From: Janthinobacterium sp. 344
GTDB taxonomy: Bacteria > Pseudomonadota > Gammaproteobacteria > Burkholderiales > Burkholderiaceae_D
Length of the DNA stretch: 64,000 nt
Reading direction: 5' to 3'
Assembly: GCF_900112025.1 (NCBI RefSeq)
Contig: NZ_FOKL01000002.1
Span: forward strand, 148,339-212,338
Part shown: positions 54,092 to 58,072 of the stretch, in pieces
Position numbering within the stretch: position 1 is the first letter of the stretch
How the letters are laid out: every line of letters begins with the position of its first letter
The notes under the pieces: model-generated
Seen by the model: the letters and a program-made list of their open reading frames with translations, nothing else
Databases searched by the model: none
Told to the model about the DNA's origin: nothing
Made by a program: the position numbers and the translations under genes

Positions 54092-57000
54092 ATGACATTC
54101 CGCCCGACCTTGCGTCCGACCTTGCGTCCCCTCTCGCTGGCCATCCTCAGCCTGTTTGCCAGCCTGAGCCTCAACGCGCACGCCGACGACCTGCGCCGTC
54201 CCTATATCGTGCAGCTCACCGATCAGCCGATCGCCTCCTACGCCGGCACCGTGGACGGCTTGAGCGCCACCCAGCCGGCAGCCGGCGCGCGCCTCGACCT
54301 GGCCAGCAGCGAAGTCCAGCTGTATGGCGATTACCTCGACCAGAAACAGGCCCGCGTGCAAGCCATCATCGCCGCCGCGCCCGTGCAATACCAGTACAAG
54401 ATCGTGCTCAACGGCTTTTCCGCCCTGCTGACCGACGCCGAAGTGCGCCAGCTGCAGGCGAGCGGCGACGTGGCCAGCATCGCCCCGGACGAGCCGCGCA
54501 CGCTGCAAACGAATTACACGCCCACCTTCCTTGGCCTGGACCAGCCGGGCGGCCTGTGGAACCAGCTGGGCGGCAAGCAGCATGCGGGCGAAGACATCAT
54601 CATCGGCATCGTCGATGGCGGCGTGTGGCCGGAAAACCTGTCCTATGCCGACAAGGTCGACGCCAACGGCACCCCCACCTTCGATGCGAACGCCACCCTG
54701 GCCTACGGCGCGCCGCCGGCTGGCTGGAGCGGCACTTGCCAGACGGGTGAAGCCTTTACGCAAGCCCATTGCAACAACAAGCTGATCGGCGCGCAGTACT
54801 TCAACGCCGTGCGCCTGACCGAAACGGACAAGATCCAGCACTGGAGCGAATTCACCTCGCCGCGCGATTCCGTGGGCGACCCCAGCGGTGAAGGCGGCCA
54901 TGGCACGCATACCTCGTCCACCGCGGGCGGCAACAGCGGCGTGCCGGCAAGCGCCAACGGCACCCCGCTGGGGGCCATTTCCGGCATCGCGCCGCGCGCG
55001 CGCCTGTCCGTCTACAAGGTGTGCTGGTCGTACAACCTGGCGACCCAGGCCACGGGCGCGAAGAACGGCTGCTACGGCGGCGACAGCGTGGCGGCCATCG
55101 AGAAAGCCGTGCGCGACGGCGTGCACGTGATCAACTATTCGATCAGCGGCGGCGGCGTCGTCAATGACCCCGTGGAACAAGCCTTTTTGCATGCCTCGAA
55201 CGCGGGCGTCTTCGTTGCCGCCTCGGCCGGCAATGCGGGACCGGCCAATACCGTGGCCCACGTCAGCCCATGGATCACCACCGTGGCGGCCTCGACGCAC
55301 AACCGCGCCAACCAGGCCACCGTCACGCTGGGCAACGGCGCCAGCTACACGGGCGCCTCGCTCAACTACAACCCGCTGCCGGCGACCGCGCTGATCCGCG
55401 CACAGGATGCGGGCTTGCCCGGCGCCGATGCGCAAAAACTGGCCCTGTGCTACCGCGCCGGCGACAACGGCGGCGTGGCCCTGCTGGATCCGGCCAAGGT
55501 CGCCGGCAAGGTCGTCAGCTGCCTGCGCGGCACCACGGCACGCACCGACAAGGGCGTCGCCGTGCTGGAAGCGGGCGGCGCCGGCATGGTGCTGGTCGAC
55601 ACGGGCATCGGCCTGGTGTCCGACCCGCACGTGCTGCCCGCCGTGCATGTCAGTGCCGCCGATGGCGCGCTGATCAACGCCCAGGCGCAGACGGGCGCGG
55701 CCACGGCCGCCATCTCGCGTTTCGTCACCAACGGCAACGGCCCGGCCGCCCCCGTGGTGGCTGATTTCTCGTCGCGCGGCCCGAACCTGTTCGATGCCAA
55801 CCTGCTGAAACCGGACCTCACGGCGCCTGGCGTGGACATCCTGGCCGGCGGCACGCCCGCCCTGTCGCGCGCCCAGCGCGATGCCGTGCAAGATGGCAGC
55901 CTGGTGCCGGCGCAAGCCTACATCTTCCTGCAAGGCACCTCGATGGCCAGCCCGCACGTGGCCGGCCTGGCAGCCCTGCTGCGCCAGCAGCATCCGACGT
56001 GGAGCCCGGCCGCCATCAAGTCGGCCCTGATGACCACCGGCAGCACCACCCTGCCCGACATCCAGGCCGGCGATGCGCGCGGCATCCTGCCATGGGGCCA
56101 GGGCGCCGGCCATGTGACGCCGAACAAGGCTGCCGATCCGGGCCTGGTGTACGACGCCACCCTGGCCGACTACAAGAAATACATGTGCGGCGTCGGCATG
56201 ACTGCCGAGTGCGCCGGTGGCACGTTGGCCGGCTATAACCTGAACATGCCGTCGATCACCATCGCCAATGTGCTGGGCACGCAAACGGTCACGCGCCGCG
56301 TCACCAACGTGGGCAGCAGCAGCGCCAGCTACACGGCAAGCGCCTCGATCAGCGGCTACAGCATCGCCGTCGCGCCAAGCACCCTGGTGCTGGCGCCAGG
56401 TGAAACCAAGTCCTTCACGGTGACACTGACGCGCACCACGGCGGCCGACAATGTCTGGCAGTACGGCGCACTGGTCTGGAGCGACGGCGTGCACACGGTA
56501 CGCAGCCCCGTCACGGCGCGTTCCGGCCGCGCCGTGCAGTCGCCTGCCCTGCTGCAGGCTGACAAGGTCAGTGGCTTGCGCCAGATCAACCTGAGCACGG
56601 GCTTTGCGGGCAAGGTGGGCGCGGCAACGGGCGGCCTGAAGGAAGTGGCCCGCAGCGAGCAAACCGTGAACCAGGCGCCGGCAGGCAGCATGGAAACGGT
56701 GGCGCAGATGACGGCCGCGTGCAAGGCCGGCAGCGGCGGCGTGCGCACCGTCAATGTCAGCATTCCCGCCAGCACGGTGGTGGCGCGTTTTGAAATCTTC
56801 GACCGCGACACCACCGAAGGCACGGGCAATGACCTCGACTTGATGCTGCTCAATGGCGCCGGCACGGCCGTCGCCATGTCGGCCACGGCCGGCTCGAACG
56901 AGGCGATCACCGTGACCACCCCGGCGGCAGGCAGCTACAAGGTGTGCGTGATCGGCTATGAACTGGCAAATGGCGTATCGACCGGCTTCGGCCTGTCGTC

Positions 57001-57256
57001 GGCCGTCGTCACGACAGCCGACAAGGGCGGCAACCTGAAAGCCACCCTGCCAGGCAAGGTGTACGTGGGCGGCAGCGCCACGGCCGGCGTCAGCTGGTCG
57101 GGCCTGGAAACGGGCAAGCGCTACCTGGGCGGCGTAGTCTTCCTTGATGGCAACAACGCGGCAGCCTCCACCACCGTGCTGTCGGTGGAGACCAACAACC
57201 CGCTGCCGCTGGCCGTCCCCAGCCAGCGCAAGGTGAAGGCGGACGCCAAGCTGTAA
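54092..57256 (+). CDS. Secreted subtilisin-like S8 peptidase with PA domain
   Basis: Large serine protease of 1054 aa. It has a signal peptide (about 1-31, NAHA) and an I9 propeptide (about 35-135, YIVQLTDQP to VLNGFSALL). The S8 catalytic triad is Asp in IGIVDGGVW (about 174), His in GGHGTHTSS (about 270) and Ser in GTSMASPHVAG (about 617). A PA insert lies at about 430-545 and C-terminal beta domains (Fn3-like, about 690-1054) follow. The plant-cucumisin-like architecture is common in environmental Gammaproteobacteria and Betaproteobacteria. No autotransporter domain is present. A strong terminator follows. ATG 54092 follows AGGAAA; the frame upstream overlaps the PEP-CTERM gene. Confidence 0.93.
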   Translation: MTFRPTLRPTLRPLSLAILSLFASLSLNAHADDLRRPYIVQLTDQPIASYAGTVDGLSATQPAAGARLDLASSEVQLYGDYLDQKQARVQAIIAAAPVQYQYKIVLNGFSALLTDAEVRQLQASGDVASIAPDEPRTLQTNYTPTFLGLDQPGGLWNQLGGKQHAGEDIIIGIVDGGVWPENLSYADKVDANGTPTFDANATLAYGAPPAGWSGTCQTGEAFTQAHCNNKLIGAQYFNAVRLTETDKIQHWSEFTSPRDSVGDPSGEGGHGTHTSSTAGGNSGVPASANGTPLGAISGIAPRARLSVYKVCWSYNLATQATGAKNGCYGGDSVAAIEKAVRDGVHVINYSISGGGVVNDPVEQAFLHASNAGVFVAASAGNAGPANTVAHVSPWITTVAASTHNRANQATVTLGNGASYTGASLNYNPLPATALIRAQDAGLPGADAQKLALCYRAGDNGGVALLDPAKVAGKVVSCLRGTTARTDKGVAVLEAGGAGMVLVDTGIGLVSDPHVLPAVHVSAADGALINAQAQTGAATAAISRFVTNGNGPAAPVVADFSSRGPNLFDANLLKPDLTAPGVDILAGGTPALSRAQRDAVQDGSLVPAQAYIFLQGTSMASPHVAGLAALLRQQHPTWSPAAIKSALMTTGSTTLPDIQAGDARGILPWGQGAGHVTPNKAADPGLVYDATLADYKKYMCGVGMTAECAGGTLAGYNLNMPSITIANVLGTQTVTRRVTNVGSSSASYTASASISGYSIAVAPSTLVLAPGETKSFTVTLTRTTAADNVWQYGALVWSDGVHTVRSPVTARSGRAVQSPALLQADKVSGLRQINLSTGFAGKVGAATGGLKEVARSEQTVNQAPAGSMETVAQMTAACKAGSGGVRTVNVSIPASTVVARFEIFDRDTTEGTGNDLDLMLLNGAGTAVAMSATAGSNEAITVTTPAAGSYKVCVIGYELANGVSTGFGLSSAVVTTADKGGNLKATLPGKVYVGGSATAGVSWSGLETGKRYLGGVVFLDGNNAAASTTVLSVETNNPLPLAVPSQRKVKADAKL

Positions 57257-57278
57257 CGGCAACGTTCTGACGTGACAC

Positions 57279-57308
57279 AACGCGCCCTGCGGGGCGCGTT
57301 TTTTTTGG
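57279..57308 (+). terminator. Terminator of the S8 protease gene
   Basis: AACGCGCCC (57279-57287) pairs with GGGCGCGTT around TGC, followed by a run of T. Confidence 0.85.
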
Positions 57309-57426
57309 CTATGTCACAGGAATCCTGATGCCGCCTGATGCGGCGCGACGCACCATTGTCCATCCGGCGCCGGCCCCGCTGTCGCCAGCCTCGGCCTCGA
57401 TGAACGCTATTGCCTGCTGCAAATAG

Positions 57427-57519
57427 CGCTACCTGGGCATGATCGAATGGCAGGATGCCAACGGCGCGACGGCGGCATCGACCTTCGTGACGGTCAAAGC
57501 TAAGGCGGCAGCGCAATAA
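57427..57519 (+). pseudogene. Remnant of a second S8 peptidase C-terminus
   Basis: A 30-codon stretch reading RYLGMIEWQDANG... and ending in TAA matches the C-terminal end of the intact S8 protease (RYLGGVVFLDGNN). It begins directly after an in-frame TAG and has no start codon. It is a leftover of a lost S8 gene copy. The rest of 57311-57619 shows no gene. Confidence 0.7.
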
Positions 57520-57619
57520 ACGGTGCTGCCATGGACGGGGAGACGGCAAGGCAGCGCCGCCCTCCCCGTTCTGCCACGGGAGTACAATCGTTGCACGACC
57601 TCGCATGAAAGGAAGCGAC

Positions 57620-58072
57620 ATGCCCACACGCACTCTGACCTTCGCCCTGCTCGCCACTGCCGCCAGCCTGGCCGGCGCCGTGCAAACGGACGGGCAGGCG
57701 CCCGCCGCGCAGGCACGGCGCGCCTACATCGTGCAACTGGCCGATGCGCCGCTGGCCGCCTACACGGGCGGCGTGCCGGGCCTGGCGCCCGCCATCGCCC
57801 AGGGCCGGCGCCTCGACACGGGCAGCGAGGCGGCGCGCCGCTACACGGCCTACCTGGAAGACAAGCAGAATGCCGTGCTGGCGCTGGTGGCCGAAGCGCC
57901 CGTGCAGTACCGCTACACCGTGACCTTGAACGGTTTTGCCGCCATGCTGACGCCGGACGAAGCGGCGCGCCTGAAGGCGCACCCTGGCGTGCTGCAAGTA
58001 TCGCTGAGCACGGTGGAACATGTGAATGAAAGTGGCGGGATGAAACAGGGACGCCCGCAGGATCAGCTGTGA
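57620..58072 (+). CDS. Free-standing I9 propeptide protein (S8 fragment or inhibitor)
   Basis: Protein of 150 aa with a signal peptide (about 1-20) and an I9-type prodomain (about 33-130, YIVQLADAP, YRYTVTLNGFAAML). It is closely similar to the N-terminal part of the intact S8 protease upstream. No catalytic domain follows; the frame stops after a short unrelated tail (GGMKQGRPQDQL). The ribosome site AAAGGAAG precedes ATG 57620, so it is likely expressed. It is either a truncated S8 gene or a stand-alone protease inhibitor. The last 10 nt overlap the convergent LuxR gene. Confidence 0.7.
   Translation: MPTRTLTFALLATAASLAGAVQTDGQAPAAQARRAYIVQLADAPLAAYTGGVPGLAPAIAQGRRLDTGSEAARRYTAYLEDKQNAVLALVAEAPVQYRYTVTLNGFAAMLTPDEAARLKAHPGVLQVSLSTVEHVNESGGMKQGRPQDQL

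Follow-up and report, generated by a model that had tools for sequence, protein, structure and literature searches.

Is a protease propeptide that is encoded by itself, downstream of a complete subtilase gene, a leftover of decay or a gene in its own right? The question is raised by a locus of Janthinobacterium sp. 344 (G000; 6.44 Mb, contig 20), which lies in a stretch of 64,000 nucleotides of contig NZ_FOKL01000002.1, here called the window, to whose positions all coordinates refer. A preliminary description recognized in the window an intact S8 (subtilase) gene, a C-terminal scrap of another and a gene for a signal peptide and an I9 propeptide domain without a catalytic domain, all of which the reading frames, Pfam and comparison with shuffled sequences (0 of 5000; see below) confirm. 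We find that the last of these, the free I9 gene, is a gene of its own that is being maintained, rather than debris, and argue that the most likely function of its product, at about even chances, would be subtilase inhibition. The features concerned are:

57620–58072, + strand: free I9 gene, 150 amino acids, with a signal-peptide-like N-terminus, an I9 core and a hydrophilic tail ending in PQDQL
57608–57615, + strand: likely ribosome-binding site of the free I9 gene, AAAGGAAG, identified by eye
54092–57256, + strand: S8-1, an open frame of 1054 amino acids with Pfam domains of a secreted subtilase precursor, the likely partner of the free I9 protein
54203–54508, + strand: Pfam I9 match within S8-1 (residues 38–139), its own propeptide
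53293–54048, + strand: gene for a PEP-CTERM protein of the NF038120 family, upstream of S8-1
57427–57519, + strand: scrap, the last 30 codons (57427–57516) and the stop codon TAA of an S8 gene, probably other than the neighbour

A maintained gene for a free I9 protein

The free I9 frame matches Inhibitor_I9 (Pfam PF05922) with 37.7 bits, the cut-off being 21.2 (38.1 bits when the whole genome was searched) and no other Pfam family at E 0.001; a catalytic domain is absent, and the protein is, like the stand-alone propeptide-like inhibitors of subtilases, a small gene product of its own. Translation from 57620 gives 150 residues, and an alternative start of the frame at 57605 would give 155. Over 117–118 aligned residues the protein is 46% identical to the propeptide of the neighbouring S8-1. 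Signal peptides were judged by eye throughout; the free I9 proteins of G027 and G028 (loci L045 and L048), of 110 residues, have none and may stay in the cytosol there.

In order to follow the gene through the genus, 40 genomes were searched with the free I9 protein and the loci were then read. The gene stands at the same place in 26 of them, with all 26 frames open. An S8 gene accompanies it in 19 genomes; in 18 of these it is S8-1 (the 17 orthologues outside the window genome are 85–93% identical and lie at the same locus), and in G004 it is an S8 of another type, 48% identical to S8-1, at a locus with no match to the PEP-CTERM gene. Seven genomes (G008, G010, G017, G019, G030, G031 and G039) carry the free I9 gene as an orphan, with neither S8-1 nor any other S8 gene nor the PEP-CTERM gene at the locus, and five (G002, G003, G011, G023 and G032) have S8-1 without free I9. 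Neither gene was found in nine genomes, as judged from the protein search alone; G029 and G037 are incomplete. An assembly error that would restore a full S8 frame, the objection foreseen in the preliminary description, is unlikely, because 25 further genomes, several of them single-contig, have the frame of this gene open.

In a tree with 43 S8 propeptides, the 26 free I9 sequences form one clade apart (ultrafast bootstrap, UFBoot, 100), whose branch measures 0.79 substitutions per site; eight of the 24 extra loci (L121, L084, L202, L203, L204, L206, L208 and L209), in which the motif filter gave no S8 frame, were dropped from this tree, and one sequence is present twice (G274 and Duganella rivi). 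The gene is under purifying selection: ω (the ratio of nonsynonymous to synonymous divergence), estimated by the Nei–Gojobori method over non-independent pairs, is 0.35–0.39, with upper 95% bounds of 0.45–0.51, in three groups that hold 24 of the 26 genes, G027 and G028 being left out. These values bear on the view that the gene is a relic, the 5′ end of an S8 gene, untranscribed and in the course of being lost, which would account for its homology with the S8 propeptide, for the scrap nearby and for a constraint weaker than that on the S8 propeptide. A pseudogene would lack constraint and have broken frames in relatives; here every frame is open, ω lies below 1 in three separate groups and a -10-like island upstream is conserved, and we reject the relic on the constraint, leaving it only a very small probability. 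The phrase ‘decayed copy’ in the preliminary description thus suits the 93 bases of the scrap and not the free I9 gene, whose retention in so many genomes, single clade, constraint and conserved -10-like element are at odds with a recent local leftover of decay.

Two candidate transcription signals lie between S8-1 and the free I9 gene:

57279–57306, + strand: terminator-like hairpin (57279–57300) and T run of the intrinsic type, 3′ of S8-1
57580–57590, + strand: conserved -10-like island, with TACAAT at 57583–57588

Terminator-like sites of this kind are no commoner than in shuffled sequence (one found, against a mean of 1.0). A hairpin and T run lie within 110 bases upstream of the I9 start in 17 relatives, and farther upstream in the window; the corresponding 110 bases of G004 and of the seven orphan loci showed none. 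The -10-like element, TA[CG]AATC, precedes the free I9 gene in 23 of the 26 loci, all seven orphans included. The columns were anchored on the hexamer itself, and only those outside it count as further evidence: -10, -3 and -1 are the same in 23 of 23, and -6 and +7 in 22. These flanking columns are constant across orphan and paired loci, and the sequence farther upstream differs. No convincing -35 element was seen, and a promoter scan reported nothing at the island. The terminator-like hairpin after S8-1, together with a -10-like element that persists at loci lacking S8-1, makes it probable that the free I9 gene is transcribed on its own. In G038, G018, G015, G001 and G007 (loci L040, L041, L042, L044 and L050), an ATG stands six bases after the TACAAT hexamer with no ribosome site between, which suggests that the messages are leaderless in those five genomes.

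Subtilase inhibition and its rivals

We propose that this small I9-fold protein would be exported by its signal peptide and would inhibit subtilases in trans, binding them once they are mature or while they mature. Its target would be S8-1 next door and, where S8-1 is missing, S8-2 elsewhere in the genome; its purpose would be to keep the envelope safe from a subtilase that matures before or during secretion. Judging from sequence and predicted fold, we lean very slightly towards an exported stand-alone inhibitor of this kind, a counterpart of POIA1, SPI-1 and SUB1-ProM.

The AlphaFold2 model of the window protein has the I9 fold, with a mean predicted local distance difference test score (pLDDT) of 71.2 (core blocks 84–93, loop 60–73, N-terminus and tail about 40) and the elements strand 34–40, helix 46–49, helix 70–90, strand 95–99, strand 105–110, helix 112–120 and strand 124–129. 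The top Foldseek ranks are taken by S8 propeptides and MORF editing factors, at E 3.8e-3 and weaker, with POIA1 at rank 16, and a sequence profile search of the PDB returned the PAM protease chain 8c4x_B (2.3e-5) and the cucumisin propeptide 4yn3_B (5.7e-4). Among 52 positions kept by at least 85% of the 43 S8 propeptides, junction included, 22 are kept in paired and 19 in orphan free I9 proteins, and the retained positions are those of the core of strands and helices, around NGFxAxLTxxEVxxL and V. The free proteins have gained an acidic residue in [ST]x[ED][HYQ] and, at the C-terminus, a largely conserved PQDQR or PQR.

A number of findings weigh against inhibition. An Asp present in 42 of the 43 S8 propeptides occurs in none of the 19 paired and in two of the seven orphan proteins; it sits at the end of the last strand and is aligned here, by our own placement, to the helix cap D71 of BPN′. 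According to the part of PMC6993865 consulted, Glu69/Asp71 of BPN′ are acidic helix-capping residues, which may mark stand-alone propeptide-like inhibitors, although some SUB1-ProM orthologues have Asn; in the free I9 proteins the Asp has mostly been lost. In place of the junction TNYTPxFLGL the free proteins have a hydrophilic tail, unlike the tails of S8 propeptides and with a pLDDT of about 40. Foldseek gave no match at E 0.001 or below, MORF editing factors hold ranks 3–8, and the model of the orphan protein is poorer, with a mean pLDDT of 64 and no call for the second strand. Two of the 26 free I9 proteins lack a signal peptide. Constraint on the I9 core is looser (ω 0.24–0.28 for paired genes, 0.38 for orphans) than on the S8-1 propeptide (0.09–0.10), and for the tail the bounds include 1 in the orphans (0.68; 0.32–1.76) and the long paired genes (0.53; 0.33–1.13), which are two of the three groups. 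Free I9 is absent from five genomes with S8-1 and one with S8-2, and the protease therefore does not need it. Finally, in orphan genome G008 (L059, near 350.5–352.6 kb) the lone S8 match, S8-2, is split, its propeptide lying in one frame and its catalytic part in another; the split may be real or a sequencing error, and no intact target is visible. The changes in the protein fit one that is freed from being cut off its enzyme, and free I9 may inhibit via its sheet surface with an altered tail, or may have switched partner.

Several of these points would also follow if the I9 fold had been repurposed in a secreted, propeptide-derived protein that has given up subtilase inhibition, much as the MORF editing factors of plant organelles employ a similar fold. 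That the capping Asp and the junction have been lost, that the acidic residue and the C-terminal end are new, that the gene is retained without S8-1 and that MORF structures take Foldseek ranks 3–8 all speak for this; in 19 of 26 cases, nevertheless, the gene follows an S8 gene, the core positions of the S8 propeptide (NGF, A, LT, EV, L, V) are kept and no other domain is present, and we consider repurposing unlikely.

The orphans raise another possibility. All seven proteins have a shortened loop in common and fall into one clade (UFBoot 100 in each of two trees), while the rpoB tree rejects the seven genomes as a clade (approximately unbiased test, AU, p 9.6e-6); the gspG-like and PEP-CTERM 2 trees, inspected by eye, likewise do not group them. 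On account of this conflict between the I9 and rpoB trees, the orphan form has probably moved between species. If the protein guarded the envelope against the subtilases of competitors, then keeping or acquiring it without a neighbouring S8 gene would pay, and the orphan loci and their tree are what such immunity would predict. However, an open S8-2 frame (1081–1082 codons) remains as a home target in six of the seven orphan genomes, and the movement can be plain recombination through the flanks; we regard immunity as decidedly improbable. Orphan immunity genes of toxin systems offer a comparison: S8 and free I9 would then be a protease–immunity pair, and the orphan form, without PEP-CTERM and S8-1 and moved between species, a travelling immunity gene against the subtilases of other strains, a suggestion that we make with little confidence.

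The preliminary description proposed a dedicated inhibitor or a folding chaperone in trans. The first is our best reading; the second, in which free I9 would help S8-1 or S8-2 to fold, is less likely because S8-1 has an intact propeptide of its own. Propeptides of mesophilic bacterial subtilases act as chaperones in cis, according to the consulted part of PMC10580911, but both S8-1 and S8-2 of the window genome carry their own propeptide in an open frame and five genomes manage S8-1 without free I9, so that we give the chaperone only a slight chance.

Origin and surroundings of the locus

The rpoB tree (rpoB was found in 36 of the 40 genomes, G023, G029, G032 and G037 being absent from the tree, and many crown nodes are weak) has a clade with support 98 that holds all free I9 carriers and some genomes without the gene. 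Because G002, G003 and G011, which have S8-1 without free I9, fall outside it, the simplest account is a single birth followed by losses. Two surveys within the Pseudomonadota speak against a wide occurrence of free I9. In 398 genomes of that phylum, one of 56 I9 matches lay on a frame shorter than 250 residues, and it was the window's own (the Pfam model may miss a free I9 that has diverged). Of the 392 family genomes, 124 had an I9 match, and among the matches listed the frames shorter than 300 residues numbered 26, all in this genus.

Intact tandem S8 genes, for which the preliminary description suggested looking in relatives, do occur at this locus in other genera: two S8 genes lie side by side, adjoining the gspG-like gene, in G056, and two modules of PEP-CTERM and S8 in G344 and G298, regions chosen since two I9 matches lay close together. 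Tandem S8 genes are likely the parent state of the locus. The free I9 gene would have arisen once, probably in an ancestor of the Janthinobacterium crown and most likely from the 5′ end of a second, tandem S8 gene. Insertion of PEP-CTERM and S8 into an older I9-only locus is less likely, as the five S8-1 genomes without free I9 and several loci of other genera have PEP-CTERM and S8 at the same gspG-like gene. Between the window and five S8-1 relatives of the long group, the synonymous divergence (dS) of I9 is 0.53–0.76, above that of S8-1 (0.29–0.44) in all five pairs, in line with separate histories of the two genes; allele exchange is one possible cause.

Pfam finds no family in the 30 residues of the scrap, and a TAG directly before it closes its frame. 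Against 27 S8 C-termini its best local score is 67, reached by none of 5000 shuffles (best shuffle 49), with the C-termini of S8-1 of G011 and S8-3 of G013 and G025; against the neighbouring S8-1 it scores 52, likewise reached by none of 5000. Because the score is higher with G011 and G013 than with the neighbour, the I9 gene of this lineage was probably once directly preceded by the end of an S8 gene other than the present one. The scrap was detected in one of the 40 genus genomes (DNA search, E 0.001, in which a diverged scrap could be missed). At E ≤ 0.05 the 392 family genomes gave four matches outside its own genome, all weak (0.0098–0.046): S8 C-termini in G011 and G013, a site some 3 kb after the I9 domain in a 1085-residue frame in G239, and a 365-residue frame in G198. 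G004, with its different S8 type ahead of free I9, shows an arrangement such as the scrap implies, and in the nucleotide tree the window I9 groups with G027/G028 (86) and with G004 (53); since the latter tie is weak, a G004-like past as the source of the scrap is a guess. That scrap and I9 gene are parts of one lost gene is rejected on their order and on the detection of the scrap in one genome of 40, by a DNA search in which a diverged scrap could be missed. The preliminary claim of at least two lost S8 copies can be kept in part: extra copies are plausible because of the pairs in G056, G344 and G298, but they are not required, as the scrap can be the end of one other S8 gene ahead of an independent I9 gene.

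The S8-1 frame is nested in a longer frame starting at 54020. Inhibitor_I9, Peptidase_S8, PA and fn3_6 are above the Pfam cut-off in it, and a PPC-like match falls just below (24.7 against 25.9 bits). A 1120-codon open frame on the minus strand (53918–57280), antisense to the entire S8 gene, is probably an effect of high G+C codon use. On the other side of the free I9 gene stands a convergent gene:

58063–58740, - strand: EpsA-like regulator of the LuxR type (129.9 bits against a cut-off of 170)

Its 3′ end overlaps that of the free I9 gene by 10 bases. Where the stretch was long enough, the order is gspG-like gene, PEP-CTERM, S8, I9, PEP-CTERM 2 and nuclease-like gene (the gspG-like and nuclease-like labels were assigned by eye), and it is otherwise kept. 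The pair of LuxR and response-regulator genes between I9 and PEP-CTERM 2 (58063–59495) has no match in G006, G019, G027, G028, G030 and G031 (loci L035, L045, L048, L052, L053 and L056), all of which keep the I9 gene, and in G012 (L046, 1870–2537) the LuxR-type gene adjoining I9 matches in two frames and looks frameshifted. PEP-CTERM and S8 form a conserved two-gene module: relatives of the window's PEP-CTERM gene precede I9-bearing S8 genes at L121–L128, L199–L209 and L081–L085 (S8-1, S8-2, S8-3 and other genera), the exceptions being the second S8 of G056 and the S8 of G004.

Comparison with known systems

A propeptide mimic encoded beside its protease has a precedent in Spi, the propeptide-like inhibitor next to the cysteine protease SpeB of streptococci, in which protease and inhibitor belong to other families. 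A bacterial comparison is PopD of Myxococcus, which is not known to have an I9 domain. In the part of PMC6434023 consulted, PopD complexes with the subtilisin-like PopC and holds the protease back before secretion; it differs in that it blocks secretion in non-starving cells. The cis propeptides of S8 subtilases have the homologous domain (PF05922) and the same fold, whereas free I9 is a separate gene of one clade, with its own -10-like element and a changed C-terminus.

Eukaryotic proteins offer further likenesses. POIA1, the yeast peptidase B inhibitor (IB2) and Arabidopsis SPI-1 (MEROPS I9; PMC6993865) are, like free I9, small I9 proteins with their own gene and no catalytic part, but the portion of that paper used here describes them as without significant sequence similarity to subtilisin propeptides, unlike the window protein with its similarity to the propeptide next door, and as possibly convergent. 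SUB1-ProM of Plasmodium, according to the same portion, is a stand-alone, signal-bearing, propeptide-like protein, syntenic beside subtilase genes and a selective inhibitor of one of them; free I9 resembles it in being a signal-bearing propeptide-like protein that stands alone beside a subtilase gene. SUB1-ProM differs in being eukaryotic, in that its inhibition was measured and in the capping Glu of all its orthologues, and that portion of the paper describes no orphan state. Among the papers listed in our literature searches (25 of 88 in one search and 40 of 58 in another), none dealt with a bacterial stand-alone I9 protein. The gene described here encodes a stand-alone propeptide of bacteria, and each step by which it may plausibly have arisen is represented among its relatives, from tandem S8 genes through paired and orphan to absent states. 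With these states present among close relatives and in other genera, the origin of propeptide-like inhibitors becomes testable, and with it the question of whether a bacterium guards its envelope against its own secreted subtilase.

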